Below are positions 6,191 to 37,545 of a stretch of 37,545 bases of DNA, piece by piece (within the stretch, counting starts at the first letter, position 1; the number at the start of each line of letters is the position of its first letter). The position numbers were made by a program, and so were the translations under genes. The notes below the pieces were generated by a model. The model searched no databases and had not been told where the DNA came from. It saw nothing but the letters and a program-made list of their open reading frames with translations. The stretch is from Bacteroidaceae bacterium. GTDB lineage: Bacteria > Bacteroidota > Bacteroidia > Bacteroidales > Bacteroidaceae. The DNA is taken from contig JAFUVE010000039.1 of NCBI GenBank assembly GCA_017483765.1, forward strand, positions 1 through 37,545, written 5' to 3'.

Positions 6191-6230
6191 TTTGTTTAGA
6201 GTTTAGAGTTGAGGGTTTAGAGTGTAGTAA
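6191..6230. repeat. 7-base-period array upstream of the giant surface protein
   Basis: Units of the type TTTAGAG/TTGAGGG recur every 7 bases. Read on the minus strand (the sense of the downstream gene) a 29-base segment of this array is identical to one directly before the aminotransferase start at 25854. It ends 8 bases before the ATG at 6183. Confidence 0.8.
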
Positions 6231-6640
6231 GCTCAGCAATGGATTGCAGTCGATGTTTTCTTGTGATTTGGCATCCATAAAGCATCCATAAAGCAGTCCC
6301 ACACACACCGCAATGCAGACCTGATTGTGGCAGGTCCGTGTTGGTTTTTGTTGAAATCTTGTCAGAAAATTGGTCTGTTAGCAGATAAGTAGTAAATTGG
6401 TTGTTGTATCGTCAGTCATGCAGATAAGGCTCTCAGCCTTTGCCGTTCCGGCATTCTTCACCGTATTTCTCTTCTTTCCCTGCGTTCGCTACAATTATCG
6501 CAAATCCTCATCCTTATCCCGTAGTCCTTTGATTTTCAGCCGGTTTATTTCATCTTTCGATCCATATTGTCTGTCAAGGCGTTAGGAATACCGCGGGGAC
6601 TCACGCACCCAGTGCGGTATGTTTGTTCTATAATTCCGTG
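6231..6640 (-). other. Probable long 5' leader, no gene seen
   Basis: No supported gene lies between the -7 box at 6641-6648 and the surface protein. If that box is the only promoter, the leader is about 450 bases long. The only structure noted is a tandem of the 11-mer GCATCCATAAA (6271-6292). Short frames here lack homology I recognise. Confidence 0.4.
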
Positions 6641-6648
6641 CAAAGTTA
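6641..6648 (-). promoter_or_regulatory. -7 box of the surface protein gene
   Basis: The minus strand reads TAACTTTGC, a full match to the Bacteroidetes TAnnTTTG -7 box. No well-spaced TTTG -33 box is seen (nearest candidates have spacers of 12 and 24 bases), so this is a moderate call. Confidence 0.55.
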
Positions 6649-6766
6649 CGAATTTTCAGTCAAATTCAGTTACAAATCATTAAAGAATTTTACGTTTTGA
6701 CACAAAATTTTAATCTATTGCATATGTTTGCTTTCAGTTTGTAAAAAAAAGGAAGGAAGAGGATTT

Positions 6767-6819
6767 GGCCGTGCTTCGCCGGCCGGATTTTGCCGCAGAC
6801 AACTGCGGCGTACATGAAA
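6767..6819 (+). repeat. REP-like element, copy 1 (two hairpins)
   Basis: The first hairpin is formed by GGCCG...CGGCC around a TGCTTCGC region; the second is GCCGCAG-ACAA-CTGCGGC (6792-6809), followed by the conserved tail GTACATGAAA. The same order occurs at 8081-8133, and the second hairpin plus tail recurs inverted at 6921-6950. All three copies flank the transposase gene, as expected for a RAYT and its REP sequences. Confidence 0.85.
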
Positions 6820-6920
6820 ACGAACACGGGACGACAAAAGCGAACAGACAGGACAATTATTGAAACTGCTAAATAATGCGATTTCATGTTAAAGCTAAAA
6901 TCAAGAGGATATGCCATCTG

Positions 6921-6950
6921 CTTTCATGTACGCCGCAGTTGTCTGCGGCA
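6921..6950 (-). repeat. REP-like element, copy 2 (inverted, one hairpin)
   Basis: This is the reverse complement of the tail plus second hairpin of copies 1 and 3 (TGCCGCAGACAACTGCGGC, then GTACATGAAAG on the minus strand). The GGCCG hairpin is absent. Facing copy 1, it makes an inverted pair upstream of the RAYT promoter, a BIME-like arrangement. Confidence 0.85.
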
Positions 6951-6967
6951 AAAAAAAAGAAAAGTCC

Positions 6968-6998
6968 TTGAACTTATCAAATTTTTTTATTACATTTG
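6968..6998 (+). promoter_or_regulatory. Promoter of the RAYT gene
   Basis: TTG at 6968-6970 and TACATTTG at 6991-6998 are separated by 20 bases, matching the Bacteroidetes -33/-7 pattern (TTTG, N19-21, TAnnTTTG). The predicted transcript starts about 15-20 bases before the ATG at 7024, supporting that start over the internal ATG at 7141. Confidence 0.7.
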
Positions 6999-7023
6999 CA
7001 AGCCATAAAAAAAGAGAAAAAAA

Positions 7024-8073
7024 ATGGATAAAGAACAGATTAACAGCACAGAAAGCAAGCTTTATCAATCTCCAGAACATACACATCATAGTCCCTGCTC
7101 TCCTCCCCAGAATAAATTCGCAAAAGCCAAGAAACCATCGATGAGAAGGAGAATGTACAATCGTGATTATAGCGGCAAAGGCATATATATGATTACCATT
7201 ACCACCGAACATAGAAATCAAATATTCGGCAGACTTCAATTTGCAGGAGACGCTTCATCGCCTTTCATTGAACATAGTATTGTAGGAAAAATGGTAAGTG
7301 ATGAATGTTTGAACATACACGCACAATGGCCTCAGATAGATATTCAGCTTGTACAAGTCATGCCTGACCACGTACATATACTTATGCAAGTGACAGAACC
7401 ATTGCCCAAACACCTTGGAAAAATCATTGCTTTTTTCATGCTTAAGACAACTCAGAATTATAATAAGCTATGCGGTGTAGACATAGAAAAAGATGGCAGT
7501 CTCAAACTTTGGGAAAAGGGATATCACGACCGAATCATCACAAATACTGAGCAACTTTCAGCTGTCAAGAAATACCTATGGGACAATCCTTTGCGGTTGG
7601 CAATCAAACGGGGACGGCAGGAGCTGTTCAACCAAGTAGGCATTGAAGTATGCGGACATTTCTTTGTCAGCATAGGCAACAGGGAGTTGCTGAACGCAAA
7701 GCGTCTGCTGCAAGTGCAATGCAGCCGCCGTCTGACTGAAGAGGAAATATTGGATAGGGTAAAGAATTTTCTTGATGAAGGGAAACAAGGAACGGTGCTG
7801 GTGTCTCCTTGTATCAGCCCTGGCGAGAAGGCGGTAGCAAGCGCTGCTGTGGACAACGGCATTCCGTTAATTGTGCTGCTCGAAAACGGATTCAGCCAGT
7901 ATTTCAAACCCAGCGGCCGGCATTTCGAGGCCTGTGCGTCAGGAAAATTGCTGATGCTTGCACCGTGGGAGCATCATAACGAGCGACGCACTATAACGAG
8001 AGAGCAATGCCTGCAACTGAACGAAATGGCAAAGGATTTATGCAACGGACAGGCGGACGCAAGCTTCATTTAA
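7024..8073 (+). CDS. REP-associated tyrosine transposase (RAYT) with C-terminal Rossmann/SLOG-like domain, 349 aa
   Basis: Residues about 40-200 are an IS200/TnpA-REP-type Y1 transposase: the HUH motif is H116-V-H118 in MPDHVHILM and the catalytic tyrosine is Y167 in WEKGYHDRII, followed by the conserved YLWDNPLR segment. Such enzymes nick and rejoin single-stranded REP hairpins. The family is usually 150-230 residues; here about 140 more follow (205-345). They contain GTVLVSPCISPGEKAV, then a hydrophobic strand (IPLIVLLENGF) and a GRHFEACASGKLLMLAPWE segment, which looks like a DprA/SLOG nucleotide-binding fold; that is a judgement from pattern, not a search. A 39-residue polar N-terminal extension precedes the core; M40 (7141) is an alternative start. 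Three REP-like elements flank the gene, so it is probably active or recently active in spreading them. Confidence 0.88.
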   Translation: MDKEQINSTESKLYQSPEHTHHSPCSPPQNKFAKAKKPSMRRRMYNRDYSGKGIYMITITTEHRNQIFGRLQFAGDASSPFIEHSIVGKMVSDECLNIHAQWPQIDIQLVQVMPDHVHILMQVTEPLPKHLGKIIAFFMLKTTQNYNKLCGVDIEKDGSLKLWEKGYHDRIITNTEQLSAVKKYLWDNPLRLAIKRGRQELFNQVGIEVCGHFFVSIGNRELLNAKRLLQVQCSRRLTEEEILDRVKNFLDEGKQGTVLVSPCISPGEKAVASAAVDNGIPLIVLLENGFSQYFKPSGRHFEACASGKLLMLAPWEHHNERRTITREQCLQLNEMAKDLCNGQADASFI

Positions 8074-8080: not shown

Positions 8081-8133
8081 GGCCGTGCTTCGCCGGCCGA
8101 TATTGCCGCAGACAACTGCGGCGTACATGAAAG
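8081..8133 (+). repeat. REP-like element, copy 3 (two hairpins)
   Basis: Same two-hairpin order as copy 1: GGCCG/CGGCC, then GCCGCAG-ACAA-CTGCGGC and GTACATGAAA. It begins 7 bases past the transposase stop codon and may double as a transcript-end structure. The rest of the gap to 8236 is purine-rich with no gene seen. Confidence 0.85.
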
Positions 8134-9326: not shown

Positions 9327-9381
9327 TTCGCCGGAATTTCCGGAGATTCCGGACAATCCGGAAATTCCGGACTGTCCAGAC
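9327..9381. repeat. 9-base-period TCCGGA array between rpsB and tsf
   Basis: The word TTCCGG/TCCGGA recurs every 9 bases about six times with variable 3-base fillers (AAT, GAT, CAA, AAT, CTG). TCCGGA is itself a palindrome, so the RNA could pair with itself in several registers. It fills most of the gap between two co-transcribed genes. Confidence 0.85.
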
Positions 9382-9392
9382 TCTGTATCTTA

Positions 9393-10256: not shown

Positions 10257-10314
10257 GATAGTTTACTTTCTTTTTAAGTTTTTGTTCAAACCCAGCCGGG
10301 GAGTAACTCAGCGA

Positions 10315-10340
10315 AGTAAAAAGTGAAAAGTGAAAAGTTT
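10315..10340. repeat. 7-base-period array (AGTGAAA type)
   Basis: AGTAAAA, AGTGAAA, AGTGAAA, AGTTTAT follow at 7-base steps within the rpsI-rpsB gap, about 60 bases upstream of the rpsB start. Confidence 0.7.
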
Positions 10341-10381
10341 ATTTACTTCTTTCTGATGATGCACAAGCCATAACCAGTTAT

Positions 10382-10425
10382 AAATATTAAATTTCAAATC
10401 TCAAATTTCAAATTTCAAATACCCC
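10382..10425. repeat. 7-base-period array (AAATTTC type)
   Basis: AAATATT, AAATTTC, AAATCTC, AAATTTC, AAATTTC, AAATACC: six units at a 7-base step. The same unit type occurs at 28617-28645 and 37517-37545. Confidence 0.85.
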
Positions 10426-10511: not shown

Positions 10512-10562
10512 ATCTCCCGGTTAATTTAATTGAATAATTGTTCAGATTTCAGCTGTTTGTTT

Positions 10563-10643
10563 CAGTTAAGAGTTGTCAGTTGTGAGCTGTCAGTTGTCAG
10601 TAGCCAACGTCTCAACTCTAAACTCTCAACTCTAAACTAAAAA
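10563..10643. repeat. Double 7-base-period array just after rpsI
   Basis: Two blocks adjoin: AGTTGTC-type units (about 10568-10602) and TCTAAAC/TCTCAAC units (about 10610-10640). The second block reaches to within a few bases of the rpsI stop codon. Unit sequence differs between the blocks while the 7-base step is kept. Confidence 0.85.
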
Positions 10644-11502: not shown

Positions 11503-11605
11503 TCTTTTTCTGTTTACTTTTTGTTGTTACTAAATTGCTGTCTGTCAATGATTCACGGACCGTGTTCCCGGCTAATAGGATGCACTATCCACACACCAAC
11601 AAGGG

Positions 11606-11623
11606 CACGCTTCGGGGAGCGTG
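11606..11623 (-). other. Hairpin in the rplM leader
   Basis: CACGCT (11606-11611) and AGCGTG (11618-11623) form a 6-bp stem with a 6-base loop just after the predicted transcription start. It could be a simple stabilising structure or a ribosomal-protein target; nothing here distinguishes the two. Confidence 0.45.
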
Positions 11624-11707: not shown

Positions 11708-11762
11708 ACCGGATTTTCTGGAGATTCCGGGGTTTCCGGGATTTCCGGACTTTCCGGGCTTC
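11708..11762. repeat. 9-base-period TCCGG array downstream of the SH3b gene
   Basis: TTCCGG/TCTGG words recur at 9-base steps about six times with fillers of 3 bases. Same class as 9327-9381 and 25011-25080. Confidence 0.85.
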
Positions 11763-15804: not shown

Positions 15805-16992
15805 TTAGTCCTCCTTCACTTTTATGGCACGCTTTGCGCGCTTGTTAATATTGCTCTGAACCACACAGTAGTCAATAAGCGGAGCGAACACGTTCATCAG
15901 CAGGATTGCCAGCATCATGCCCTCCGGATAACCCGGGTTGAGCACACGGATGATAATCGCCATGACGCCGATGAGGAAACCGTAAATCCACTTGCCGCAC
16001 TCTGTACGGGCGGAAGTCACAGGGTCGGTGGCCATAAAGACAGCGCCGAAGCAGAATCCACCAACCGTGAGGTGCTCATACCACTGGAAGTTCTCTGTCA
16101 CCTTGTCCTTGAAGATGAATGCCATGAGCGCACCACCGACGAAGACACTCAGCATCGTCTTCCAGCTTGCCACGCCCGTGATGAGCAGCAGAGCCGCTCC
16201 AAGCGCTATGGCGATGACGCTGGTCTCACCAATGGACCCCGGCATGATACCGGTGATAGTGTCCATAAAGTCAGCAGTCACTGCCACTGGCTTATCTGCC
16301 GTGTTGGCAGCCAGCTCACCAAGCGGTGTAGCCATGGAGTAAGCATCCACATTGCCGCTTACACCTGTGATGCAGTCCATGTAGTTCTGGTTCACCCATA
16401 CCTTGTCGCCCGACATGGTAGAAGGATAAGAGAAAAAGAGGAACGCGCGCGTGACGAGCGCCACGTTGAAGATGTTCATACCGGTTCCGCCGAATATCTC
16501 CTTGGCGAAAATCACTGCGAAGGCAGTTGCTATGGCGATGATCCACAGCGGACAGTTGATTGGCACGATCATCGGAATGAGAATACCGCTGACAAGGAAT
16601 CCCTCATGGATTTCCTCGTTCTTCCACTGTGCCACGGTGAACTCGATTCCGAGTCCGACGAGATAGCTGACCACGATTTTCGGCAGTACGGCAGCCAGGC
16701 CGTAGAAGAAGCTGCTCCAGAAAGCAGGGTCCTGCTCGCCGTTGGCGATATAGTGCCAGTGTCCTACGTTCCACATTCCGAAGAGCAGTGCCGGGGTCAG
16801 TGCGATCACAACAAACGACATGATGCGCTTGGAGTCGATGGCATCATGGATATGAGCTCCTTTGGCCTTGGCCGTGTCGTTGGGGACGTACATGAACGTC
16901 TCGAATCCGTCGAACACCGACCGGAAAGCATGGAGCTTCCCGCCTTCCTGAAACGAAGGCTTGATCTTGTCGAGAAATTTTCTTAAACCCAT
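15805..16992 (-). CDS. nqrB: Na+-translocating NADH:quinone reductase subunit B, 395 aa
   Basis: The largest membrane subunit, which houses riboflavin and a covalent FMN and forms the Na+ path. About ten hydrophobic helices are visible from residue 56 on. The FMN site is S219-M-A-T222 within VDAYSMATPLGEL, a slight variant (Met for Gly) of the usual S-G-A-T. GGTGMNIFNVALVTRAFLFF (about 168-187) is a conserved segment. The N-terminal cytoplasmic part (1-55) is typical. The gene is separated from nqrA by a 131-base gap that contains a 7-base-period array. Confidence 0.96.
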   Translation of the reverse strand: MGLRKFLDKIKPSFQEGGKLHAFRSVFDGFETFMYVPNDTAKAKGAHIHDAIDSKRIMSFVVIALTPALLFGMWNVGHWHYIANGEQDPAFWSSFFYGLAAVLPKIVVSYLVGLGIEFTVAQWKNEEIHEGFLVSGILIPMIVPINCPLWIIAIATAFAVIFAKEIFGGTGMNIFNVALVTRAFLFFSYPSTMSGDKVWVNQNYMDCITGVSGNVDAYSMATPLGELAANTADKPVAVTADFMDTITGIMPGSIGETSVIAIALGAALLLITGVASWKTMLSVFVGGALMAFIFKDKVTENFQWYEHLTVGGFCFGAVFMATDPVTSARTECGKWIYGFLIGVMAIIIRVLNPGYPEGMMLAILLMNVFAPLIDYCVVQSNINKRAKRAIKVKED

Positions 16993-16999: not shown

Positions 17000-17036
17000 A
17001 TTTACGATTTACAAATTTACGATTTACGATTTATTT
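17000..17036. repeat. 7-base-period array (TTTACGA type) between nqrA and nqrB
   Basis: TTTACGA/TTTACAA units recur at 7-8-base steps directly upstream of the nqrB start (ATG at 16992). Same class as the other A/T-rich arrays. Confidence 0.75.
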
Positions 17037-18848: not shown

Positions 18849-19118
18849 TTAGTCAGCCTCAGCAATGAAGAGTGTGTCGATGTTTTTCATGAAACGAAGA
18901 ATACGCGCCTCGTTGTTGTTCGACAGCAGGAGCGTGCGGAAGCCCATGTCGTGAAGGCGCACGAACAACTCGTCCACCCGTGGCGTGGAGTCAGCGCCAT
19001 GGGGGACGAGCGTGTTGTCGATGTCGAAGATAAGCGCACGGCATCCATTGTCGTATAGCCGTCGGTAATCTATTGAGAAGACATCCTCAACGTAGTCCGA
19101 AGGAAAGAAGGTTTTCAG
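18849..19118 (-). pseudogene. Truncated YqeG-like HAD phosphatase
   Basis: The minus strand encodes 89 residues from CTG at 19118 to TAA at 18849. They contain the HAD motif I FDIDNTLV and motif II LLLSNNNEAR, spaced as in YqeG-type (class IIIA) phosphatases, and an N-terminal TFFPSDYVEDVFSIDYRRL typical of that family. Motifs III (Lys) and IV (GDQ..TD) are missing; a complete protein is about 165-180 residues. There is no ATG/GTG/TTG start: the codon before the first family-like residue is TAA and the upstream sequence is a 7-base-period array. The 3' break is next to the 33-base tandem repeat. Both ends are therefore lost to repeats. A short functional peptide is unlikely. Confidence 0.75.
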
Positions 19119-19157
19119 TTATCAGTTTTCAGTTATCAGTTTTCAGTTATCAGCTTT
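19111..19157. repeat. 7-base-period array (GTTTTCA/GTTATCA alternating)
   Basis: GTTTTCA and GTTATCA alternate three times, then GCTTTTT. The array lies between the stop codon of the DUF805 gene and the broken 5' end of the HAD fragment, overlapping the first residues of the latter. Confidence 0.85.
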
Positions 19158-19890: not shown

Positions 19891-19930
19891 AATTTTATAG
19901 TTTTTGCAACAATTAATATCAAAATAAAAG

Positions 19931-19938: not shown

Positions 19939-19981
19939 CAAAAAAAATGTAAATTATAAAGCAAAATCGCAAAATTGTTTG

Positions 19982-25002: not shown

Positions 25003-25010
25003 CCATAACA

Positions 25011-25678: not shown

Positions 25679-25755
25679 AGTTTAATGTGGAATGTTGAAA
25701 GTTTAATGAGGATTGTTTATTGTTGAAAGTTTATAGTTTAATGTTGAATGTGGAA
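25679..25755. repeat. 7-base-period array (AATGTTG/AAAGTTT type) after iorB
   Basis: AATGTGG, AATGTTG, AAAGTTT, AATGAGG, ATTGTTT, ATTGTTG, AAAGTTT and so on follow at a 7-base step over about 75 bases. It closely resembles the array at 29968-30027, and both lead into the same 44-base dispersed repeat. Confidence 0.85.
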
Positions 25756-25796
25756 ATCCAACCTATCAACCACTTCATCCGCATGGCACTCTAAAC
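25753..25796. repeat. 44-base dispersed repeat, copy 1
   Basis: This segment (from GAAATCCAACCTATCAACCA to GGCACTCTAAAC) matches 30033-30076 at about 40 of 44 positions. It contains TCCGCATGGC, the core later repeated in the 50/51-base tandem unit. Confidence 0.85.
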
Positions 25797-25850
25797 CCTC
25801 AACTCTAAACCCTCAACTCTAAACCCTCAACTCTAAACTCTAAACTCAAT
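25790..25850. repeat. 7-base-period array before the aminotransferase
   Basis: CTCTAAA and CCCTCAA alternate at 7-base steps and end three bases before ATG 25854. A 29-base part is identical, in the same orientation to the downstream gene, to the array before the giant surface protein (6191-6230). Confidence 0.9.
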
Positions 25851-27175: not shown

Positions 27176-28483
27176 ATGATCTACAATCCCGAAATGGAAT
27201 GCATGTCCCGCGAGGATATGCGCAAGCTGCAAAGCGAGAGACTGATAAAGACAGTAAAAAACTGCTACGAGAACGTCCCGTTCTATAAGAACAAGATGGA
27301 CCGTCTTGGACTTAAGCCGGAGGACATCAAGAGCATCGACGACATCGTGAAACTGCCATTTACAACCAAGCACGACCTGCGCGACGAGTACCCCTTCGGA
27401 CTCCAGGCAGTACCGATGACCGACGTAAGAAGAATACACGCCTCATCCGGAACCACAGGAAAACCGGTGGTCGACACCTATACTGACAACGACATCGACA
27501 TGTGGTCAGAAGGTGTGGCACGAGTGATGAGCTGTGCCAACGTAGGCAAAGGCGACATTGTACAGGTGTCCTACGGCTACGGACTTTTCACCGGCGGACT
27601 TGGCGCACATGACGGTGCATCTAAACTGGGAGCTGTGCAGCTGCCCACCTCAGCAGGAAACTCTGAGAAACAAATCATGCTCATGCAGGACTTCGGATCA
27701 ACCGTCCTGGCATGTACGCCGTCCTATGCACTCCACCTGGCCGAGGTGATTGAGCGCAGCGACAAGGTGGACATCAACAAGATGAAACTGCGCGCCGGAT
27801 TCTTCGGCGCTGAGCCATGGACTGAAGGAATGCGCAAAGAGCTGGAGACAAAACTGCACATCAAGGCATACGACATCTACGGACTGACCGAGATGTGCGG
27901 ACCAGGTGTGGGAGGCGAATGTGAGGAGCAGAACGGAACCCACCTGTGGGAAGATATGTTCTACCCCGAAATCATCAATCCCGACACACTCGAGCCATGC
28001 GCGCCAGGAGAGTTCGGAGAGCTCGTGTTCACATCTCTCTGCAAGGAGGCCATGCCTATCATACGCTACCGCACACGCGACCTCACACGGCTCATCTATG
28101 ACCAGTGTCCATGCGGACGTACGGCTGTCAGGATGGACAAGATTCTCGGACGAAGCGACGACATGCTCATCGTTCGCGGTGTCAACGTCTTCCCTTCCAC
28201 TATCGAAGCCATCCTCACGGAGTTCCCGGCGTTCACACCGCAGTATTTCATCACGGTGGACCGCAAGAACAACGAAGATATGTTCGACCTCGACGTGGAG
28301 CTGCGCAACGAGTACTTCTCACCCAACCCGTCGAAGCAGATGCCATTCATCAAGCCGCTCTACGACCGCATCGTCAGCGTGGTGGGAATCAAGCCCAACA
28401 TCCACATCAAAGAGCCTAACAGCATCGCACGCTCCATGGGCAAGGCAAAACACGTCAACGACAAACGTAACTTTCACGGATAA
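27176..28483 (+). CDS. paaK: Phenylacetate-CoA ligase, first paralogue, 435 aa
   Basis: An ANL-family ligase joining an arylacetate to CoA with ATP (AMP-forming). The P-loop motif is S90-S-G-T-T-G-K-P, then YGYGLFTGGLG (about 133-143), the A5 motif YGLTEMCGPGV (235-245) and YRTRDLTRL with the catalytic-domain hinge region, then RSDDMLIVRGVNVFP typical of PaaK. The short (about 435) length is normal for PaaK. It begins after a short A-rich gap behind the aminotransferase and clearly shares its transcript. A second, related copy follows. Confidence 0.94.
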   Translation: MIYNPEMECMSREDMRKLQSERLIKTVKNCYENVPFYKNKMDRLGLKPEDIKSIDDIVKLPFTTKHDLRDEYPFGLQAVPMTDVRRIHASSGTTGKPVVDTYTDNDIDMWSEGVARVMSCANVGKGDIVQVSYGYGLFTGGLGAHDGASKLGAVQLPTSAGNSEKQIMLMQDFGSTVLACTPSYALHLAEVIERSDKVDINKMKLRAGFFGAEPWTEGMRKELETKLHIKAYDIYGLTEMCGPGVGGECEEQNGTHLWEDMFYPEIINPDTLEPCAPGEFGELVFTSLCKEAMPIIRYRTRDLTRLIYDQCPCGRTAVRMDKILGRSDDMLIVRGVNVFPSTIEAILTEFPAFTPQYFITVDRKNNEDMFDLDVELRNEYFSPNPSKQMPFIKPLYDRIVSVVGIKPNIHIKEPNSIARSMGKAKHVNDKRNFHG

Positions 28484-28488
28484 GGAAA

Positions 28489-28518
28489 TTTTGAGGTTTG
28501 AACTTTGAGATTTGAACT
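28489..28518. repeat. 7-base-period array (TTTGAAC/TTTGAGG type) after paaK 1
   Basis: TTTGAGG, TTTGAAC, TTTGAGA, TTTGAAC at 7-base steps directly past the paaK stop. Bases 28519-28616, up to the next array, show nothing else. Confidence 0.75.
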
Positions 28519-28616
28519 GTATAGTCACCATGAATATCGATGGCCAGACTTTTTAATCTCATCGTATTAAATCAAAACTCAGTAATCCTTTCCATGAATT
28601 ATAAGTAATCCTAAAT

Positions 28617-28645
28617 ATCAAAGTTCAAATTTCAAATTTCAAAGT
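28617..28645. repeat. 7-base-period array (AAATTTC type) before paaK 2
   Basis: CAAAGTT, CAAATTT, CAAATTT, CAAAGTA at 7-base steps, ending 5 bases before ATG 28650. Confidence 0.8.
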
Positions 28646-28649: not shown

Positions 28650-29963
28650 ATGGACTACAAATCTGAATACCTGCATCCGCAATACGAGGCACTGAGCCGG
28701 GAAGAGCTGCAGAAACTGCAGCTGGAGCGACTGCAGGCCACCGTCCAGCATTGCATGAACTCACCGTTCTACAAAGCACGGTTCGAACAATGCGGACTCA
28801 AACCGGAGGACATCCAGAGCCTGGACGACATCCGCAAAATTCCTTTCACTACCAAGCAGGACCTGCGCGACACCTACCCGTTCGGCATGGCCAGCGTGCC
28901 ACTGACCAAGTGCGTGCGTCTGCACTCATCGTCGGGCACCACGGGCAACCCCACCGTCATCCTGCACACACAGAAAGACCTTGACGAATGGGCCAACGCC
29001 GTGGCACGGTGCCTCTGGATGGTTGGTCTGCGTCCCGACGACGTGTTCCAGAACTCATCTGGATACGGAATGTTCACCGGCGGACTGGGATTCCAGTATG
29101 GAGCCGAGCGACTGGGCGCGCTCACCGTGCCTGCAGCTGCAGGAAACTCACTCCGCCAGATCAAGTTCATCAAGGACTTCGGCACCACGGCCATCCACGC
29201 CGTTCCAAGCTACGTCACCCGTCTCTACGAGGTGATGCAACAGGAGGGAGTGGACCCTCGGCGCGACACCAAGTTGAAAGTGCTGGCCATCGGAGCTGAG
29301 CCCCACTCTGAAGAACAGCGCAAGCGCATCGAGGACATGCTCGGCGTAAAGGCGTACAACTCATTCGGAATGAGCGAGATGTGCGGACCAGGAGTAGGAT
29401 TTGAATGTAAAGAACAGAATGGTCTGCACTTCTGGGAAGACTACTACATCGTGGAAATCGTGGACCCGGAGACACTCGAGCCTGTGCCCGACGGAGAAAT
29501 CGGCGAGCTCGTGCTCACCACGCTCAACCGCGAGGCCATGCCGCTGCTGCGCTACCGCACACGCGACCTCACACGAGTGCTCGGACGCACTTGTCCCTGC
29601 GGCCGAAACCACATTCGCCTCGACCGCATGAAGGGACGCAGCGACGACATGATGGTGCTCCGCGGCGTCAACATCTTCCCGATCCAGATTGAGAAGATAC
29701 TCATGCAGTTCGATGAGCTGGCAAGCAACTACCTCATCACACTCACCACCGACGACGACAACGACAACATGACCGTGGAAGTGGAGCTCGAGAAGTTCGA
29801 CGACGACTACGCAAAACTCCAAAAGTTGGAGAAAGAGATCCGTCGACGTCTGAAAGACGAGATTCTGCTCACCCCGTTCGTCAAGCTCGTGCCGAAGGGA
29901 ACGCTCCCTGTCAGCGAGGGCAAGGCCGTCAGAGTGGTCGACAAGCGAAAAGTCTATCAATAA
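28650..29963 (+). CDS. paaK: Phenylacetate-CoA ligase, second paralogue, 437 aa
   Basis: The same domain order as the preceding ligase: SSSGTTGNP P-loop (residues 93-101), SSGYGMFTGGLGF (about 135-147), SFGMSEMCGPGV A5 motif (about 238-249), YRTRDLTRVLG and RSDDMMVLRGVNIFP. The two proteins agree closely over most motifs but differ in the substrate-side segments (for example GYGLFTGGLGAHDG against GYGMFTGGLGFQYG), which may mean different aryl acids, such as phenylacetate against indoleacetate or 4-hydroxyphenylacetate. Lys near the C-terminus (GTLPVSEGKAVR) is the expected adenylation lysine. The ACT gene follows after a 330-base repeat-rich gap. Confidence 0.94.
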   Translation: MDYKSEYLHPQYEALSREELQKLQLERLQATVQHCMNSPFYKARFEQCGLKPEDIQSLDDIRKIPFTTKQDLRDTYPFGMASVPLTKCVRLHSSSGTTGNPTVILHTQKDLDEWANAVARCLWMVGLRPDDVFQNSSGYGMFTGGLGFQYGAERLGALTVPAAAGNSLRQIKFIKDFGTTAIHAVPSYVTRLYEVMQQEGVDPRRDTKLKVLAIGAEPHSEEQRKRIEDMLGVKAYNSFGMSEMCGPGVGFECKEQNGLHFWEDYYIVEIVDPETLEPVPDGEIGELVLTTLNREAMPLLRYRTRDLTRVLGRTCPCGRNHIRLDRMKGRSDDMMVLRGVNIFPIQIEKILMQFDELASNYLITLTTDDDNDNMTVEVELEKFDDDYAKLQKLEKEIRRRLKDEILLTPFVKLVPKGTLPVSEGKAVRVVDKRKVYQ

Positions 29964-29967
29964 ATAG

Positions 29968-30027
29968 GTGAAAGATGAAAGATGAAAGATGAAAGTTTAA
30001 AGTTGAAAGTTTAAAGTTGAATGTGGT
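29968..30027. repeat. 7-base-period array (AAAGATG then AAAGTTT type) after paaK 2
   Basis: AAAGATG occurs three times, followed by AAAGTTT and AAAGTTG alternating, then AATGTGG, all at a 7-base step. It resembles 25679-25755. Confidence 0.85.
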
Positions 30028-30032
30028 ATGAT

Positions 30033-30076
30033 GATATCCAACCTATCAACCATCCCATCCGCATGGCACTCTAAAC
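30033..30076. repeat. 44-base dispersed repeat, copy 2
   Basis: About 40 of 44 positions match 25753-25796 in the same orientation. It leads directly into the tandem 50/51-base units. Confidence 0.85.
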
Positions 30077-30090
30077 TTTAAACTAAAAAA

Positions 30091-30293
30091 GGAGTCCGCA
30101 TGGCTCTTTAAACTTTAAACATTCAACTTTAAACTAAAAAAGGGGTCCGCATGGCTCTTTAAACTTTAAACATTAAACTTTAAACTAAAAAAGGGTTCGC
30201 ATGGCTCTTTAAACTTTAAACATTAAACTTTAAACTAAAAAAGGGGTCCGCATGGCTCTTTAAACTTTAAACACTAAACTTTAAACTAAAAAT
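30091..30293. repeat. 50/51-base tandem repeat, four units, before the ACT gene
   Basis: Units begin near 30091, 30142, 30193 and 30243. Each has the core GGGGTCCGCATGGCTCTTT (one unit GGGTTCGC) followed by AAACTTT/AAACATT words at a 7-base step and an A run. The ATG of the ACT gene falls where the fifth core would start. Spacing is 51, 51 and 50 bases. Confidence 0.95.
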
Positions 30294-30815: not shown

Positions 30816-31439
30816 TTACCGCAAAATGTCCCTGATGGCTTCTTGCAGTTTTTCTAAGAATAGGGCGGCATGCTTGCCATCCATCTGAGCGTGATGGAAT
30901 TGGAATGAAATGGTTAGTGATGTCTTACACCAATGGCGTTTAAATTTTCCCCAGGCCAAGAAAGGATTGTTGAAAATACCACAGTATTGGTTGACAATGC
31001 AGTCTAATTCAGTGCCTACCACAGCGGATGTTCCCACAATCACGGCATCCTTGTCATTGATATTTTGACATAACGTACTAGATTCCTGTGTGAGTTTCTC
31101 ATAGTCACGACAAAACTCCGCTAAATGATTACTGTATGGAATATCGCAGTTGCTGATGCCACCCTTCGTATTATCCACAATCACATTGATGGCAATACGG
31201 TCATACTTGAACAGTTTTCCATTTTCTGGCAGCATATAAAACTCCTCAATGTTGCTGGCTGCTTTGCCTATACACCAACATAGGAGCATATTGAATTTCA
31301 AACCTTTTCGCCGGCTTATTTTACGAAGTCGCGTCACGTCGAAGGTCTTGACTAAGGTGACCATTGGCATAGGTGACTTCATCCACATCTCGAATGCTTC
31401 AGCGCGGGTGGTTTCCTTGGGATTGACTTCCTGTTTCAT
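30816..31439 (-). CDS. Chloramphenicol acetyltransferase-like (CatA family) protein, 207 aa
   Basis: The CAT fold acetylates hydroxyl groups using acetyl-CoA in a trimer. The catalytic segment SFQFHHAQMDGKHAALFLEKLQ gives H183 as the base and D187 as the structural Asp. NCDIPYSNHLAEFCRDYEKL (about residues 97-116) is the family's middle segment, and the length (about 210) fits. The usual CAT sequence is HHAVCDG; here it is HHAQMDG, common among chromosomal CAT-like proteins that are not proven resistance enzymes, so resistance should not be assumed. Its ATG overlaps the stop of the upstream zinc-ribbon gene (ATGA), so the two are translationally coupled. Base composition is visibly more A/T-rich than the neighbouring plus-strand operon, hinting at a separate origin. 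Confidence 0.85.
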   Translation of the reverse strand: MKQEVNPKETTRAEAFEMWMKSPMPMVTLVKTFDVTRLRKISRRKGLKFNMLLCWCIGKAASNIEEFYMLPENGKLFKYDRIAINVIVDNTKGGISNCDIPYSNHLAEFCRDYEKLTQESSTLCQNINDKDAVIVGTSAVVGTELDCIVNQYCGIFNNPFLAWGKFKRHWCKTSLTISFQFHHAQMDGKHAALFLEKLQEAIRDILR

Positions 31440-32527: not shown

Positions 32528-32588
32528 ATTTTTGACAATCCGAGATAGAAATAAACTGAGTAGAAACATACAAAACTGGATAATCATT

Positions 32589-34985
32589 ATGAAAAATTAT
32601 TTTATCCAAAGGCTTAAGTCCTTTTTCGCGATGCTCGTCATCTTGCTTTTCGTGTCAGCCAATGCGACAGCACAGACCAAAGAGCCTGTGGCGTACTACA
32701 ATTCAAGCACGAAAACGCTGACATTCACGATGATGACAGATACCGAATTCAACAACCTGAAATACCCTAAGTGGAAAGGACAACAATTGTATTATAGCGA
32801 CCCAAGTTGGCTTAGTTATAATGAAGAAATTGAGAAAGTGGTGTTCAGTACCAGTTTTGCCGACGCAAGGCCTGAAAGATGTGAAAAATGGTTCTATAAT
32901 TGTAAAAAAATACAAAATATTACCGGATTGGGAAACCTGAACACTTCCAATGTGACAAATATGGATCGCATGTTTCAATATTGTGAGTCGTTGACCAGTC
33001 TTGACCTTTCTAAGTTCAACACTTCTAAAGTGAAACGGATGGGTTGCATGTTTTGGGGATGTAAGTCACTGACTAAACTAGATCTCGGCTCGTTCGACAC
33101 CTCGGAAGTGGAGACTATGGGTAGTATGTTTTATAATTGCACCAACCTGAAAAATGTCAACGTGTCGTCGTTCAACACATCGAATGTGAATTCAATGTTT
33201 CAGATGTTCTATGGATGTTCGTCGCTTGTAAAACTTAATCTGACCAGTTTCACGGTCTCAAGTTCGACGGATTTGGAATACATGTTTTGTAAATGCACCA
33301 ATCTTAAAACCATTATTTGCAACAGGACTTGGGAAAGCCCAGATGACTACTTCATGTTCTCTGGCTGTACGTCGCTTGTCGGTGCCATATCCTACGAATA
33401 TCTGAAGGATAGAAGTACATACGCCAATCCCGACAACGGCTATTTCACAAGGGTCAGGGGCTATCAACTGAGAATATGCGGTAAGGAAGTAACCAATGTG
33501 AACTGCGACGACCTCTCTGTGATAGAAGGGGTGACCATAAGAGCGAGCGACGGATATGCCTACTACGATCCTTATGAACAAAGACTGTATCTCAAGGGGG
33601 TGGTAATCGCCGCTTTGGACAATCCGGCACTTTATGATAACTCTGTCGACGATTTGACAGTCGATGCAGAGAAGGATAATATGGATTATGGGGTTACTTT
33701 CTTCTCTTCCAGTTCAAGCCAGAGCAAATTGTCACCTGTGATGGAACTGCATGGACCTGTTCTTTTATGTGGCACGGGAAAACTTTATGTCAATGGCATA
33801 CCAAGTTCCTCTATTTACACTGGCAATGTGGAATTGGGTAATTATGCGGTTCCCGGCATCACGTCAAACGACCGTCTTACTATAGAGGATTTATGGTTAA
33901 GCGTGCAGGGAAGCTCTGGTATTTGCGGTGTATCGATCCTTTGGCCAGACCAACCTATACGCTATCCGCTTTCCATAAATGGAGATAATACTTATTTGAG
34001 GGTTATGACAAATGGGGGACCATGCATCTACAACTTCGACAGCTACCCTACCAGTCTGGCTGTTCGATACCCGGAGGGGGCGGTCTTCGAAGACAATGCA
34101 CTTCGTCTGAATGGGAAAATTGTCAAGGACCTTGCTGTGATCGCACGTCCGATTGTAGGGACTGGAATTTATGTCGCAGGACAAGAGGTGACAAGCGATA
34201 ACTGCGACGACCTCACCACAGTCAAGGGTGTTGAGGCGAGCGACGGAGGTTATCTGCGCTACGACTGGGATACCAACACGCTTGAGATGGAGAACGTGAG
34301 TATCAACGGTGGAGACGACTACGCATTGAGAAACACCCGTGACGGGTTGACCGTCAAAGTAGGGCACGGTCATGTTTTTGGATACAACACTTTGTCTGTG
34401 TCAGAAGGAAAAACCGCGATGTCCATAGAAGCGGCTACCACCATTAAAGGAAACGGAGGAACATTCACAAATGATCTCGATGGATGTCTTTTGGTTGGAG
34501 GAAATGAAGCCTTTGGTATTTACATTAATAATACAAATTTAACCATAGAGGATGCCACAGTCGTAGTAACGGGCACACTTGGTATATGGGGATATAGCAA
34601 TCATGGTATTACCAGAGGAATCCTCAACCTCAAGGGGTTGGCTGCATTAGCAGTTACGGGAACTTCATCGTGCATGGACCGTTTGCAGCAACTGAATCTC
34701 GGCGACCATATACAGATCGTCAAGCCTGATGGAGCCGTGTTTGATGGTAATGCCATTCGTGAAGGCGTTGGTGGTAGTATTGTGGCAGGCAAGCAGGTGA
34801 TTATTCAATACTTCAATCCTTGCGACGTGAATCTCGATGGCAATGTGGATATCTCAGATATCGTTGCAGTGATTAACACCATTGCGGGTAATGACACCTA
34901 TAAAAAAACTGCTGATGTCAATTTAGACGACAACATAGACATTTCCGACATTGTCGCAATCATCAATGCCATTGCCGGGAAGTGA
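32589..34985 (+). CDS. BspA/DUF285-type surface protein with dockerin-like tail, 798 aa
   Basis: ATG 32589 opens a signal peptide (MKNYFIQRLKSFFAMLVILL, cleavage after ATAQ). About residues 90-265 are DUF285 leucine-rich repeats: five or so units of the type LNTSNVTNMDRMFQYCESL, each roughly 23-25 residues, as in BspA-like adhesins. Two related modules follow, each opening with I-C/V-G/A-G/K-x-E-V-T-x-x-N-C-D-D-L and a Y-D-P/W-x-T-x-x-L segment (about 300-500 and 525-720). The last 55 residues carry two dockerin-like calcium loops, DVNLDGNVDISD and DVNLDDNIDISD. The frame is open 57 bases further upstream, but only the 32589 start gives a proper signal peptide. Probable role: cell-surface binding. 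More A/T-rich than the GH127 gene. Confidence 0.86.
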   Translation: MKNYFIQRLKSFFAMLVILLFVSANATAQTKEPVAYYNSSTKTLTFTMMTDTEFNNLKYPKWKGQQLYYSDPSWLSYNEEIEKVVFSTSFADARPERCEKWFYNCKKIQNITGLGNLNTSNVTNMDRMFQYCESLTSLDLSKFNTSKVKRMGCMFWGCKSLTKLDLGSFDTSEVETMGSMFYNCTNLKNVNVSSFNTSNVNSMFQMFYGCSSLVKLNLTSFTVSSSTDLEYMFCKCTNLKTIICNRTWESPDDYFMFSGCTSLVGAISYEYLKDRSTYANPDNGYFTRVRGYQLRICGKEVTNVNCDDLSVIEGVTIRASDGYAYYDPYEQRLYLKGVVIAALDNPALYDNSVDDLTVDAEKDNMDYGVTFFSSSSSQSKLSPVMELHGPVLLCGTGKLYVNGIPSSSIYTGNVELGNYAVPGITSNDRLTIEDLWLSVQGSSGICGVSILWPDQPIRYPLSINGDNTYLRVMTNGGPCIYNFDSYPTSLAVRYPEGAVFEDNALRLNGKIVKDLAVIARPIVGTGIYVAGQEVTSDNCDDLTTVKGVEASDGGYLRYDWDTNTLEMENVSINGGDDYALRNTRDGLTVKVGHGHVFGYNTLSVSEGKTAMSIEAATTIKGNGGTFTNDLDGCLLVGGNEAFGIYINNTNLTIEDATVVVTGTLGIWGYSNHGITRGILNLKGLAALAVTGTSSCMDRLQQLNLGDHIQIVKPDGAVFDGNAIREGVGGSIVAGKQVIIQYFNPCDVNLDGNVDISDIVAVINTIAGNDTYKKTADVNLDDNIDISDIVAIINAIAGK

Positions 34986-35214: not shown

Positions 35215-35225
35215 ATTTTCGTGGG

Positions 35226-35624
35226 CTACAACTCTTCCAGGCTTTTCTTCATCCTGTAGGCCGAAGAATTGAGAATGGCGAGCAGCTTGCCTTCCTCGCT
35301 GGTGATGCGCACCTCGCAATAAGGGATTTTGCGGTGGTCCACCACCTCGCGTGCCTCAGCAAAGACCCAACCCGACTGCACGTTGCTCACGTACGTCATG
35401 TTGGAGGAGATGGCCACCGTCACTTGCCCGTGGCTGTTCACCGCAGCGGCGAAAGCCAGGTCAGCCAACGTGAAGAGCGCACCGCCCTGACAATAGCCGG
35501 TGGCGTTGAGATGCTCAGGCGTGACAAGCATGCGGGCCTTGGCATAGCCCTCAGAGATTTCCACCAGTTCGGCCCCGATCATTGCGGCAAACCGGTCGTT
35601 CACGAAAAATTCTTTTAAATCCAT
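35226..35624 (-). CDS. PaaI-type hotdog thioesterase, 132 aa
   Basis: A single hotdog fold that hydrolyses acyl- or aryl-CoA. The active-site stretch is N40-ATGYCQGGALFTLADLAFA, with N40, the G-G pair and D55 as in PaaI enzymes; the usual HGG is QGG here, which occurs in the family. The length (about 130-140) is typical. Together with the two paaK genes 6 kb away it suggests that stalled aryl-CoA is recycled, but a broader acyl-CoA clean-up role is equally possible. Its upstream gap holds a 9-base-period array of about 110 bases. Confidence 0.87.
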   Translation of the reverse strand: MDLKEFFVNDRFAAMIGAELVEISEGYAKARMLVTPEHLNATGYCQGGALFTLADLAFAAAVNSHGQVTVAISSNMTYVSNVQSGWVFAEAREVVDHRKIPYCEVRITSEEGKLLAILNSSAYRMKKSLEEL

Positions 35625-35642
35625 TGTCGCTTGATTTTAGTT

Positions 35643-35756
35643 GTCGGACAGGTCGGACTTGTCTGACTGGTCCGACTTGTCTGACTGGTCTGACTTGTCC
35701 GACTTGTCCGACTTGTCTGACTCGTCCGACTGGTCTGACTTGTCCGACCTGTCCGA
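35643..35756. repeat. 9-base-period TCyGACTkG array
   Basis: About 12-13 units of nine bases (TCCGACTTG, TCTGACTGG, TCCGACTTG, ...) fill the gap between the symporter stop and the thioesterase start. The unit differs from the TCCGGAnnn type elsewhere but the 9-base step is the same. Confidence 0.92.
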
Positions 35757-35766
35757 TAAAAAATTA

Positions 35767-37317
35767 TCACATCTTCTTGCTGTAGCACTTGAAGATGTTG
35801 TCAACGTATGACTGCCGCATCTTCGGAGTGAAGAGGCTGACGAGAATCACAATCGGGAATCCACCCACCATCGCGATGGCACCGCAGTTAATCGGGTTGG
35901 CAATGGCGTTGTTCGTCAGCATATTGACCACCGTAAGTCCCACACCCCATGCGAAGCAGGCCCAAACGGCGGAGGTAGTCACTTTCTTCCAGTACAGACC
36001 CACGAGGAACGGTGCGAGGAAGGCACCGGCCAGCGCACCCCACGATATACCCATCAACTGAGCGATGAACGTAGGCGGGTTGAGCGCGATCATGAGCGCG
36101 ATGACGATGAAGAAGACGATGAGCACGCGCATGACGATGACCTTGCGCTTCTCCACCTTCTCCGACACCATGTCGTCGATCGTGCCCTCCTCCACCTCAC
36201 CGGGCAGCGACTTCTTGTCGCGGTAGATGAGGTCGAGTGTCATGGTGGAGGCAGATGTCAGCACGAGCGAAGCCAACGTGGACATGGATGCCGACAGCAC
36301 AAGCAGCACCACAAGGGCGATGAGGATGTCAGGCAATCCTGACAACATGGACGGCACGACGGAGTCGAAGTCCGACGGCACCATCACACCGTTTTTCTCC
36401 ACAAACTGCAATGAGCCGGAGAACAGACGGCCGAATCCACCAAGGAAATAGCAACCGCCCGCTACAATGAAGGCGAAGATGGTGGAAATGATGGTTCCGC
36501 GCTTGATGGCCTTCTCGTCGGTGATGGAATAGAATTTGCCCACCATCTGGGGCAGTCCCCATGTGCCGAGCGAAGTCAGCACGACGACACCCAGCAGATT
36601 CCACGGGTCTGGTCCGAAGAGACTGCCGAACTGCCCGTTGACCGCAGGATTGGCATCGCTGGGCACTGCCGCGATTTTCTCCATGGCAGAAGAGAGTCCG
36701 CCTTGCGTGTTGAGCACTGCGGCGATGATAGTGACGATGCCGAAGAGCATGATGATGCCTTGGATGAAGTCGTTGAGCGCAGTGGCCTTATAGCCGCCAA
36801 GAATCACATAGACGGCAGTCAGGAGCGACATGATGATCACACAATATTCATAAGGAATACCGAATCCCATCTCGAAAAGCTTGGATATGCCTTTGTAGAC
36901 ACCGGCCGTGTACGGGATAAGGAAGACGAAGGCGATGATAGACGCCGCGATACGCAGCCCCTGGTTATTGTAGCGTGTGCCGAAGAAGTCGGGCATGGTG
37001 CGCGATTCGATATGCTGAGTCATCAGCTTTGTGCGGCGGCCCAGGATGATCCAGGCCAACAGCGACCCGATGATAGCGTTGCCGATGCCGATCCACGACG
37101 ATGAAAGACCGTATTTCCAGCCAAACTGACCTGCATAGCCCACGAACACGACGGCAGAGAAATAGCTGGTGCCGTAAGCGAAGGCAGTGAGCCAAGGACC
37201 CACAGACCGTCCGCCGAGCACAAATCCGTCAACACTCTTGGCCTGCTTGCGGGAATATATTCCCACATAAACGGTGACTGCCAGGAAAATGACAGTCAAT
37301 AATATCTTGATAAACAT
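35767..37317 (-). CDS. Sodium:solute symporter (SSS family), 516 aa
   Basis: An inner-membrane cotransporter using the Na+ gradient. About 13 hydrophobic helices are seen. GFVLGGRSVGPWLTAFAYGTSYFSAVVFVG (about residues 31-60) is the N-terminal core that begins the LeuT-like fold, with GGYKATALNDFIQGIIM (about 174-190) being the SSS signature. LSASMSTLASLVLTSASTMTLDL (about 342-364) is the conserved helix around the second Na+ site. The substrate cannot be told from the sequence; proline, pantothenate, sialic acid or sugars are all family substrates. A short 7-base-period array lies just upstream of the ATG; no promoter box was found. Confidence 0.9.
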   Translation of the reverse strand: MFIKILLTVIFLAVTVYVGIYSRKQAKSVDGFVLGGRSVGPWLTAFAYGTSYFSAVVFVGYAGQFGWKYGLSSSWIGIGNAIIGSLLAWIILGRRTKLMTQHIESRTMPDFFGTRYNNQGLRIAASIIAFVFLIPYTAGVYKGISKLFEMGFGIPYEYCVIIMSLLTAVYVILGGYKATALNDFIQGIIMLFGIVTIIAAVLNTQGGLSSAMEKIAAVPSDANPAVNGQFGSLFGPDPWNLLGVVVLTSLGTWGLPQMVGKFYSITDEKAIKRGTIISTIFAFIVAGGCYFLGGFGRLFSGSLQFVEKNGVMVPSDFDSVVPSMLSGLPDILIALVVLLVLSASMSTLASLVLTSASTMTLDLIYRDKKSLPGEVEEGTIDDMVSEKVEKRKVIVMRVLIVFFIVIALMIALNPPTFIAQLMGISWGALAGAFLAPFLVGLYWKKVTTSAVWACFAWGVGLTVVNMLTNNAIANPINCGAIAMVGGFPIVILVSLFTPKMRQSYVDNIFKCYSKKM

Positions 37318-37322
37318 ATTAC

Positions 37323-37400
37323 TTAGTTTTCAGTTTTTAGTTTTCTGTTTTCAGTAAGTTACTCAATTTTACAGTTTTCAGTTTTTAGTTTTCAGTCTTC
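37323..37400. repeat. 7-base-period array (GTTTTCA/GTTTTTA type) before the symporter
   Basis: Two blocks of GTTTTCA/GTTTTTA/GTCTTCA units at a 7-base step are separated by a short GTTACTCA segment. Its near end is about 6 bases from the symporter ATG. Same unit family as 19111-19157. Confidence 0.85.
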
Positions 37401-37516
37401 AGTGAGTTACTCCAGAAGGGCTACAATACAGGTACCTTTTAAACTTAAGCATGATAAAAAAGAATTTCTGGAATCCCCTTATTCATCAAAGTATGTATCA
37501 TATCCATAGCAGGGTA

Positions 37517-37545
37517 ACTCTAAACTTCAAATTTCAAATTTCAAA
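37517..37545. repeat. 7-base-period array at the window edge
   Basis: CTCTAAA, CTTCAAA, TTTCAAA, TTTCAAA follow at a 7-base step and run to the end of the window. Bases 37401-37516 contain nothing else recognised. Confidence 0.8.

Follow-up and report, generated by a model that had tools for sequence, protein, structure and literature searches.

Edge-Anchored Heptanucleotide Arrays of Several A/T-Rich Unit Families and Their Strand Polarity in a Bacteroidaceae Genome

The STRR heptamers of heterocystous cyanobacteria are tandem units of 7 bp. Here we describe tandem heptamer arrays in the intergenic gaps of a 37,545-nt stretch of DNA from a Bacteroidaceae bacterium (contig JAFUVE010000039.1 of assembly GCA_017483765.1; hereafter the window) and of the genome to which it belongs, arrays that bear on an open question, the commonness of heptamers among long bacterial tandem repeats. 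Tandem heptamers above chance, together with the idea that polymerase slippage produces them, go back to a survey known to us through two later papers (Mrazek, 2007, as described in PMC4679880 and PMC4692102). The part of MacGregor (2015; PMC4679880) available to us reports TAACTGA arrays lying forward, a few nucleotides ahead of starts. Close strains differ there by 7-nt insertions or deletions (indels), and the arrays place stop codons in every frame; for F. litoralis a single reverse set directly past a stop is given, and the start rule fails in the sampled sets of M. aeruginosa. For the GGGNATC heptamers of Xanthomonas and Nostoc, the accessible text describes a preference for positions within 50 bp of open reading frames (ORFs), a G strand that is antisense ahead of starts and sense past stops, overlap with stop codons, a preference for four units, and length variation between close strains (PMC4692102, 2015).

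Position and strand of the heptamer arrays

The window is contig C95 of the source genome (G000; 3.13 Mb in 105 contigs, 70% complete). We sampled 31 contigs of this genome, 1.03 of 3.13 Mb with the window included, which hold 597 gaps, 139.5 kb of gap DNA and 890 kb of ORFs. Genes were taken as ORFs of at least 100 aa, picked greedily and begun at the first start codon, no annotation being used, and arrays were called by an ungapped detector at a run score of at least 12. The first 17 stretches were chosen by contig number and many of the 40 later ones for hits to the core sequences described below or for length, a choice that introduced little bias in density, since the initial 33.3 kb, for which ORFs of 80 aa or more were taken, held 35 arrays and the full 139.5 kb held 161. 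These 161 arrays, of lag 7, 14 or 21 (116, 38 and 7, respectively), are 32 nt long at the median and occupy 128 of the 597 gaps, with about 0.8 found in shuffled gaps; by extrapolation the whole genome would hold near 490. The ORFs contain 13 arrays of lag 7 or 14, plus 17 of lag 21, 21 being a codon multiple. Heptamer arrays in G000 have the concentration outside coding DNA by which simple-sequence repeats are recognized.

Edges were counted for the 147 arrays with a gene on both sides, the other 14 being left out. Ninety of the 147 lie within 11 bp of a gene edge, where random placement in the same gaps gave a mean of 29.7 and a maximum of 43 (2000 trials). Near-edge arrays, within 40 bp of a gene edge, number 106 (57 start-side and 49 stop-side), and 41 are far (>40 bp). 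Most of the start-side arrays end 0–11 nt ahead of the start, and most of the stop-side arrays begin 0–12 nt past the stop codon. Indeed, a stop codon is wholly included in 22 arrays and touched by a further 4, and a start codon is wholly included in 2 and touched by 4.

The arrays are also oriented relative to the gene. In the direction away from the nearest gene, 89 of the 106 near-edge arrays have more G than C (G-type), 12 have more C than G (C-type) and 5 are tied. Starts give G-type to C-type counts of 41:3 (tandem gaps) and 8:1 (divergent gaps), and stops give 31:7 (tandem) and 9:1 (convergent); far arrays show no such polarity (22:18, 1 tied). One unit can show both faces on the mRNA, as TCTAAAC ahead of a start and as GTTTAGA past a stop. 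Besides the 5 ties, the 17 near-edge arrays that are not G-type include two stop-side ones that may really be start-side, because each leads straight into an ATG (of 217 and 576 codons). Past stops the G excess is absent from array-free gaps (sense C 0.222, G 0.197).

The polarity extends across units. The original prediction, made from the letters of the window alone, held that the units change while the period does not. Several units do occur, but they are not arbitrary: 140 of the 147 arrays sort into six families plus variants, with 7 unassigned, these families (like the cap patterns below) having been defined after the arrays had been inspected. Scored by family, the sense orientation comes to 53:2 for start-side, 7:41 for stop-side and 21:16 for far arrays. 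Family E (TAACTGA unit, of which CTGATAA is a rotation) accounts for 20 of the 147 arrays and is oriented 13:0 at starts; in the window this unit appears only at 19111-19157 and in the related CTGAAAA arrays at 37325-37403. Because several unit families in one genome share the edge and polarity rule, the rule is separable from any one sequence.

All 14 coordinates at which the original prediction had placed 7-bp arrays carry them (Tandem Repeats Finder, TRF; gaps printed in steps of 7), and the excess it anticipated in the autocorrelation is present, with a lag-7 identity of 0.345 in window gaps (z = 12.8 against 100 dinucleotide-preserving shuffles) and echoes at lag 14 (z 9.1), lag 21 (z 6.8) and lag 28 (z 4.0). 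The lag-7 excess is not seen in the coding DNA of the window, which has period 3 instead. No 7-bp array of TRF score of at least 40 lies in the coding stretches of the window, so that the further claim of none inside an intact gene needs qualification only for one weak 19-bp run (22130-22148, score 31) within an ORF. The excess was also expected not to be a matter of A/T-rich composition. In two members of G000's own family it is missing, with 0 arrays in 14.5 kb of gaps in G021 (31% GC) and 1 in 9.5 kb in G017 (28% GC); A/T richness alone therefore does not yield heptamer arrays. Escherichia coli K-12 has 0 arrays in 4.1 kb of gap DNA.

The period itself is fixed only in part. It is 7 at all named sites, but the same gaps of G000 also hold 70 arrays of lag 9 or 18 and 21 of lag 8 or 16, and lag 9 is raised in window gaps as well (z 7.5). 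The 9-bp units are often centered on palindromes (e.g., CCGG, CTAG and GTCNGAC), and the 9/18-bp arrays have no clear edge preference (30 of 67 within 11 bp, against 22.4 at random and a random maximum of 35). They look like a class separate from the heptamers. The window has four arrays of period 9/18 (9331-9382, 11716-11761, 25008-25070 and 35641-35756), whose units center on palindromes (CCGG, GTCNGAC).

Recurrence, turnover and gap modules

Polarity recurs within the genus and less cleanly beyond it. Six other genomes of the genus (G002, G004, G005, G006, G007 and G009) give summed near-edge G:C counts of 15:2 at starts and 14:2 at stops, and the sister genome G012, which is not independent of G000, gives 21:3 and 14:3; the stretches of G012, and some of those of G005, G007 and G029, were chosen for core hits. 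Among 80 Bacteroidales loci, 54 are without any array, and the counts are 5:2 at starts (1 tied) and 11:3 at stops (1 tied), the units there being different ones, among them AATTACG, AATTGAG and GATGAAG. Edge-hugging is weaker in these comparisons: in the other genus members 21 of 49 arrays only equals the random maximum of 21 (random 10.7), and in the 80 Bacteroidales loci 17 of 42 falls inside the range of random placement (random 10.3, maximum 19). An assembly or binning artefact of a metagenome-derived genome could be suspected from the incompleteness and fragmentation of G000 and from the several contig ends that carry arrays. This is scarcely credible, as G012 has arrays in the same gaps (20 of 83 orthologous gaps in both) and two arrays stand in the DSM 17135 record of Phocaeicola plebeius (L061).

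At least 80 stretches from IMG/VR (L304-L383), from 79 contigs, carry exact TAACTGA-type arrays, several of them beginning at a stop codon. This set of putatively viral contigs was picked for the TAACTGA unit and is redundant, with 155 arrays once identical gaps are removed. On the stop side, the sense strand reads TTATCAG in 60 arrays vs 5 (20 other units), or in 22 vs 4 (14 other) when distinct cases with genes of at least 150 aa are counted, several of these coming from one repeated gene context. Scored by G versus C outward, the set gives 30:15 at stops (6 tied) and 15:9 at starts (8 tied). Within 13 nt of a start the set has 15 distinct start-side cases, which by our own reading comprise 5 TAACTGA-forward, 1 reverse and 9 with other units; four of the 5 forward cases precede apparently one and the same gene. 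Stop-side orientation recurs in the IMG/VR set; start-side orientation does not clearly do so.

Close relatives show how the arrays change, and a genus with close sister genomes makes array birth, growth and unit replacement traceable gap by gap. Across 83 orthologous gaps of G000 and G012, two gaps being set aside because too little was aligned, arrays are found in both genomes in 20 gaps, in G012 only in 6, in G000 only in 2 and in neither in 55. Aligned columns are about 95% identical in arrays and elsewhere alike, and unit families are mostly kept. Indels of 7n nucleotides make up 12 of 24 inside arrays vs 30 of 262 elsewhere, an excess that is soft because the alignment of tandem units favors whole-unit gaps. 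Units are also swapped in place: upstream of the symporter gene (window 37318) CTGAAAA heptamers in the window correspond to CGTAAAT heptamers in G012, and in a gap of contig C30 (35077-35185) CATTCTT is replaced by CACTTTT following an unchanged AAGTAACTAC, the G000 copy being short. Furthermore, whole spacers come and go between related genomes; at the junction 25671/25854, G005 has an overlapping ATGA and G000 a 182-bp spacer with two opposed arrays (our own reading).

The original prediction had offered a copying process or selection on spacing as the source of the constant period. The whole-unit indels and the unit swaps at a kept period favor a shared generating process, but the prediction left out the strongest signal, namely edge position together with strand polarity relative to the gene, and spacing selection alone is insufficient because spacing does not predict polarity. 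The simplest such process would be a pure mutational by-product, in which polymerase slippage favors a 7-nt step and the arrays persist because gap DNA is free to vary. Whole-unit indels, the many unrelated units and the scarcity of lag-7/14 arrays in ORFs (13 over 890 kb) all fit this explanation. It predicts, however, neither the edge-hugging (90 of 147 vs 30) nor the polarity (89:12), some relatives with A/T-rich gaps are almost array-free (G017, G021), and the excess of lag-7 runs over shuffles tops at 3-4 units (68 and 74 runs) rather than at two (19; five units, 41), although imperfect two-unit runs are under-detected. As a full account we regard it as unlikely.

Beyond the arrays themselves, the gaps are built as mosaics from dispersed modules, and heptamers often occupy the gap edges. 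The cap GCCATGCGG/GCCATCCGG, or a near form, adjoins the inner side of 24 of the 106 near-edge arrays, against a background of 0.2% of sliding windows (420/180544; array-free gaps, both strands). Ends resembling GAGTTACTC are found at the inner side of 12 of the 106 (background 58/3437 windows), and an ATTAGT-like inner end at 10, a count with no background rate for comparison; 60 of the 106 have none of the inner motifs searched for. CCGCATGGCNCTNTAAAC occurs 23 times in G000, 18 times in G012 and twice in G005, with 0 in 58 other genomes. A second core (core 2, about 100 bp and dispersed) has at least 16 copies in G000 and at least 19 in G012, not every candidate being scored, and in G012 it sits within TTTGAAA arrays whose G000 counterparts lack it (gaps 192 and 244). 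A copy of this core, likewise set within TTTGAAA arrays, lies at L031:11580-11684, and the 35-41 bp center of the core matches several other genera.

These modules raise the possibility of an intergenic element, mobile or copied, that consists of a cap and an array, perhaps bears inverted arms and inserts into tight gene junctions; the arrays would form its ends, and their polarity would derive from the element instead of from translation. The enrichment of caps over background, the restriction of CCGCATGGCNCTNTAAAC to G000, G012 and G005 among the genomes scanned, the presence of core 2 inside G012 arrays where G000 is bare, and the 182-bp spacer that stands in place of an ATGA overlap are all in its favor. 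Yet more than half of the near-edge arrays (60 of 106) have no recognized inner motif, polarity is found with other units in other genera, and opposed arms, that is, terminal inverted repeats, are present in some gaps but overall no more alike than chance. We consider such an element improbable as the general source.

Over the 89 usable arrays, the opposed-arm similarity of an array to the other gap edge is 6.40, vs 6.24 in other gaps, and opposed pairs scoring at least 14 number 7 vs 3.3 by chance (maximum of 1000 draws 10). A paired-arm rule (hairpin or terminal inverted repeat), suggested by several window gaps, was dropped, opposed similarity being at chance over the 89 arrays. Similarity to the opposite gap edge in direct orientation, meant as a control, came out above chance for the near-edge arrays of G000 (7.29 vs 5.99, maximum 6.92), with 8 direct pairs vs 1.6 by chance (maximum 7).

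Selection for a DNA or RNA structure, either a G-quadruplex or a hairpin of opposed arms, would find some encouragement in the like edge preference and polarity of the GGGNATC-type arrays as far as the available text describes them (PMC4692102), in the 7 of 89 usable arrays that face a similar opposed arm, and in the order of arrays neighboring in one gap, which is G-type then C-type 11 times and the reverse once (16 pairs are of equal type and 5 include a tie). Against it, the opposed arms are overall at chance, a quadruplex is possible in 1 of 161 arrays under a loose two-G rule, and GGG or CCC is present in 14 of 161. The quadruplex model was dropped on that single qualifying array. Since the A/T-rich families obey the rule and lack quadruplex potential, quadruplex formation as its cause is argued against, and we hold structure of either kind to be very improbable.

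Translation as a possible filter

The reading we favor, if tentatively and at somewhat less than even confidence, is that the arrays are edge-anchored, long simple-sequence heptamers with fast whole-unit turnover that are retained only where they leave translation unspoiled. Turnover would proceed through slippage of whole units or through unequal exchange, and the 7-nt step would presumably be a property of the copying machinery; spread to new gaps may occur partly along with the short cap sequences; and survival would be limited to places where an array does not spoil translation. Ahead of starts, the mRNA strand of an array is G-poor and A-rich, which would keep it open and almost free of start codons and would suit Bacteroidota ribosomes, which do not rely on Shine-Dalgarno pairing. 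The accessible portions of two papers describe this background: Bacteroidota make no use of Shine-Dalgarno pairing and need open leaders, and AUG is under-represented near starts (PMC3155529, PMC6847099). Because Bacteroidota need open leaders with few stray AUGs and no Shine-Dalgarno pairing, selection would keep the start-side orientation. Past stops, the mRNA has the opposite strand, whose stop codons in G000 usually close all three frames, 7 not being divisible by 3.

The start-side rationale, open mRNA as predicted by folding, is supported by computation. When 49 start-side arrays were reversed in silico, the predicted unpaired probability around the start fell from 0.66 to 0.50 (42 of 49, p 7e-7), and start codons per start-side array are 0.16 in sense vs 1.98 in antisense. 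The stop-side rationale is inferred and is the weakest step of the proposal. All three frames are closed in sense by 37 of 49 stop-side arrays, and in antisense by 18 of 49. Sense stop codons as the general cause of stop-side polarity were a candidate that we rejected: they fit G000 (37 vs 18 of 49) and fail in the TAACTGA stretches.

Several observations weigh against a translational filter. Reversal of stop-side arrays leaves the unpaired probability unchanged (21 higher and 25 lower of 46, p 0.91), and stop-side arrays hold 3.51 start codons in sense vs 0.37 in antisense, so that there is no start-codon avoidance at stops, the sense strands there being the richer in start codons. At starts the two strands close the frames equally often (34 and 35 of 57). 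Family D (3 stop-side arrays in G000) is without stop codons on the sense strand, and because the stop-side TTATCAG of the IMG/VR set has none either, sense stop codons cannot be the general reason. In that set, moreover, start-side orientation is 17:17 with 17 other units, or 9:7 with 11 other among distinct cases with genes of at least 150 aa. Of the 14 BOGUAY sets reported to overlap the end of an ORF, 13 run forward with respect to the following gene and show TAACTGA, with stops, on the sense strand (PMC4679880); these stop-overlapping sets therefore run opposite to the TTATCAG of IMG/VR. Finally, the gene edges are our own ORF calls and not annotation, and a step of 7 rather than 8 or 10 is left unaccounted for by the present data.

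Translation could also be involved in another way, if the arrays were bound by an RNA protein of S1, Csp or Csr type that reads heptamers and controls the translation of many genes. The many start-side arrays that end 0-11 nt ahead of a start and the array length of about 30 nt would suit such a protein, and the part of MacGregor (2015; PMC4679880) available to us argues so for the TAACTGA repeats of marine Beggiatoaceae. In G000, however, six unit families occupy the same places interchangeably, and stop-side arrays put the opposite strand on the mRNA, and we think this explanation quite improbable.

A broader reading than the translational filter, which we also hold unlikely, would have one process common to several phyla (Bacteroidota, Cyanobacteria and Gammaproteobacteria), blind to unit sequence, that deposits roughly four units of 7 bp at the boundaries of genes, the G-type strand facing outward at either end of the gene, the shared cause being a copying or repair step at gene ends. 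If this were true, quadruplexes, stop codons and start-region structure would each be side effects. Counter to it, the TAACTGA sets of BOGUAY and Microcystis, as given in the accessible text, do not all obey the rule (PMC4679880).

The window and comparison with known heptamers

The window has gene content of Bacteroidales type, including ribosomal proteins S9, L13 and S2, EF-Ts, Nqr genes, a pyruvate/ferredoxin-type oxidoreductase and an aminotransferase, besides two AMP-binding genes (phenylacetate-CoA-ligase-like, by our own naming) and one ACT-pair gene. The closest relatives of its S2 protein are labeled Bacteroides, Prevotellaceae, Bacteroidaceae and similar. The arrays and caps are collected in Table 1.

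Table 1. Heptamer arrays, caps and the compound repeat located in the window
Feature	Position	Strand	Setting and method
TCTAAAC/CCTCAAC 7-bp array (sense)	6194..6227	-	10 bp upstream of start of ORF 583-6183 (-); TRF, stepped print
TTTTCAC 7-bp array on rpsB strand	10314..10338	-	57 bp upstream of rpsB ORF start; TRF
AAATTTC 7-bp array	10381..10420	+	interior of rpsI-rpsB gap; TRF
TCAGTTG 7/14-bp array	10562..10601	+	interior of rpsI-rpsB gap; TRF
GTTTAGA/GTTGAGA 7/14-bp array (sense)	10610..10638	-	7 bp past rpsI stop; TRF
CGTAAAT 7-bp array (sense)	17000..17033	-	7 bp upstream of nqrB (15805-16992, -); called by TRF, missed by the ungapped detector (indel)
CTGATAA/CTGAAAA 7/14-bp array (rotated TAACTGA)	19111..19157	-	1 bp past stop of ORF 19159-19941 (-); TRF
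GTTTAAT/GTTGAAA 7-bp array	25679..25755	+	7 bp past stop of 25099-25671; TRF
Cap motif CCGCATGGC	25779..25787	+	inner side of adjoining array 25788..25847
ACTCTAAACCCTCA 7/14-bp array	25788..25847	+	6 bp ahead of ATG 25854; TRF
TTTGAGA/TTTGAAC 7/14-bp array	28487..28518	+	3 bp past stop of 27176-28483; TRF
TTTCAAA 7-bp array	28613..28643	+	6 bp ahead of ATG 28650; TRF
GATGAAA/GTTTAAA/GTTGAAA 7-bp array	29966..30030	+	2 bp past stop of 28650-29963; TRF
Cap motif CCGCATGGC	30059..30067	+	motif search
51-bp tandem repeat	30072..30292	+	copies consist of cap (CCGCATGGC x3, TTCGCATGGC x1) plus CTTTAAA heptamer array
CTTTAAA arrays inside 51-bp repeat	30106-30135, 30157-30186, 30207-30236, 30258-30287	+	repeat ends 6 bp ahead of ATG 30294
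Two 7-bp arrays CTGAAAA/CTAAAAA (sense)	37325..37403	-	upstream of ORF 35767-37317 (-); TRF
AAATTTC 7-bp array	37516..37545	+	runs into contig end; TRF

The gap holding the 51-bp repeat measures 330 bp in the window vs 124 bp in G012. Tandem repeats other than heptamers, with units of 46 bp and 33 bp, lie in gaps at 3-98 and 18672-18822. An Rfam scan of the window (E up to 1) returned three matches, of which the L13-Bacteroidia ribosomal leader (RF03127) at 11550-11623 (-) alone reached its gathering score (40.1 bits; gathering score 38). A GH127 enzyme and a DUF285/LRR protein (20132-23335 and 32532-34985) both have a dockerin type I match at the C-terminus, and 30816-31439 (-) matches the chloramphenicol acetyltransferase family (PF00302) and adjoins a zinc-ribbon gene. 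A Y1 (IS200-type) transposase gene at 7024-8073 is flanked by repeated palindromes GGCCGTGCTTCGCCGGCC at 6767-6819 and 8081-8132, and a palindrome of this type also adjoins some heptamer arrays elsewhere, an arrangement like that of RAYT/REP systems.

The heptamer excess, the TAACTGA arrays at starts and the polarity of G-rich heptamers are already in print. New here are several A/T-rich unit families that follow the same rules in one genome and are without quadruplex potential; a literature search that covered few subscription papers returned no paper on Bacteroidales describing A/T heptamers of several families with polarity at gene edges. The G000 arrays share with the heptanucleotide long simple sequence repeats of Mrazek the tandem 7-mers beyond chance and the idea of a polymerase step, and differ in having several unit families with edge polarity, for which the survey, as described in the later papers, has no such test. 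A likeness of another kind exists to the Porphyromonas gingivalis miniature inverted-repeat transposable element with a minisatellite (PMC4596501), as far as its accessible part goes, in that there, too, a Bacteroidales genome links a tandem repeat to a dispersed element; by its title that element has inverted-repeat ends, and none are shown for the G000 arrays.

Family E has the unit of the TAACTGA repeats and their forward orientation at starts, but in G000 it is one of six families, whereas related heptamers are described, in the text available, as rare as repeats in BOGUAY (PMC4679880), and stop-side arrays (49) are nearly as common in G000 as start-side ones (57). The GGGNATC heptamers are matched in edge preference, polarity and stop overlap (89 G-type, 12 C-type and 5 tied in G000). 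In the accessible part of their description, few of these repeats lie between divergent ORFs and inverted pairs are common in Xanthomonas (PMC4692102). Their G runs and quadruplexes are features of their own, which the arrays of G000 do without.

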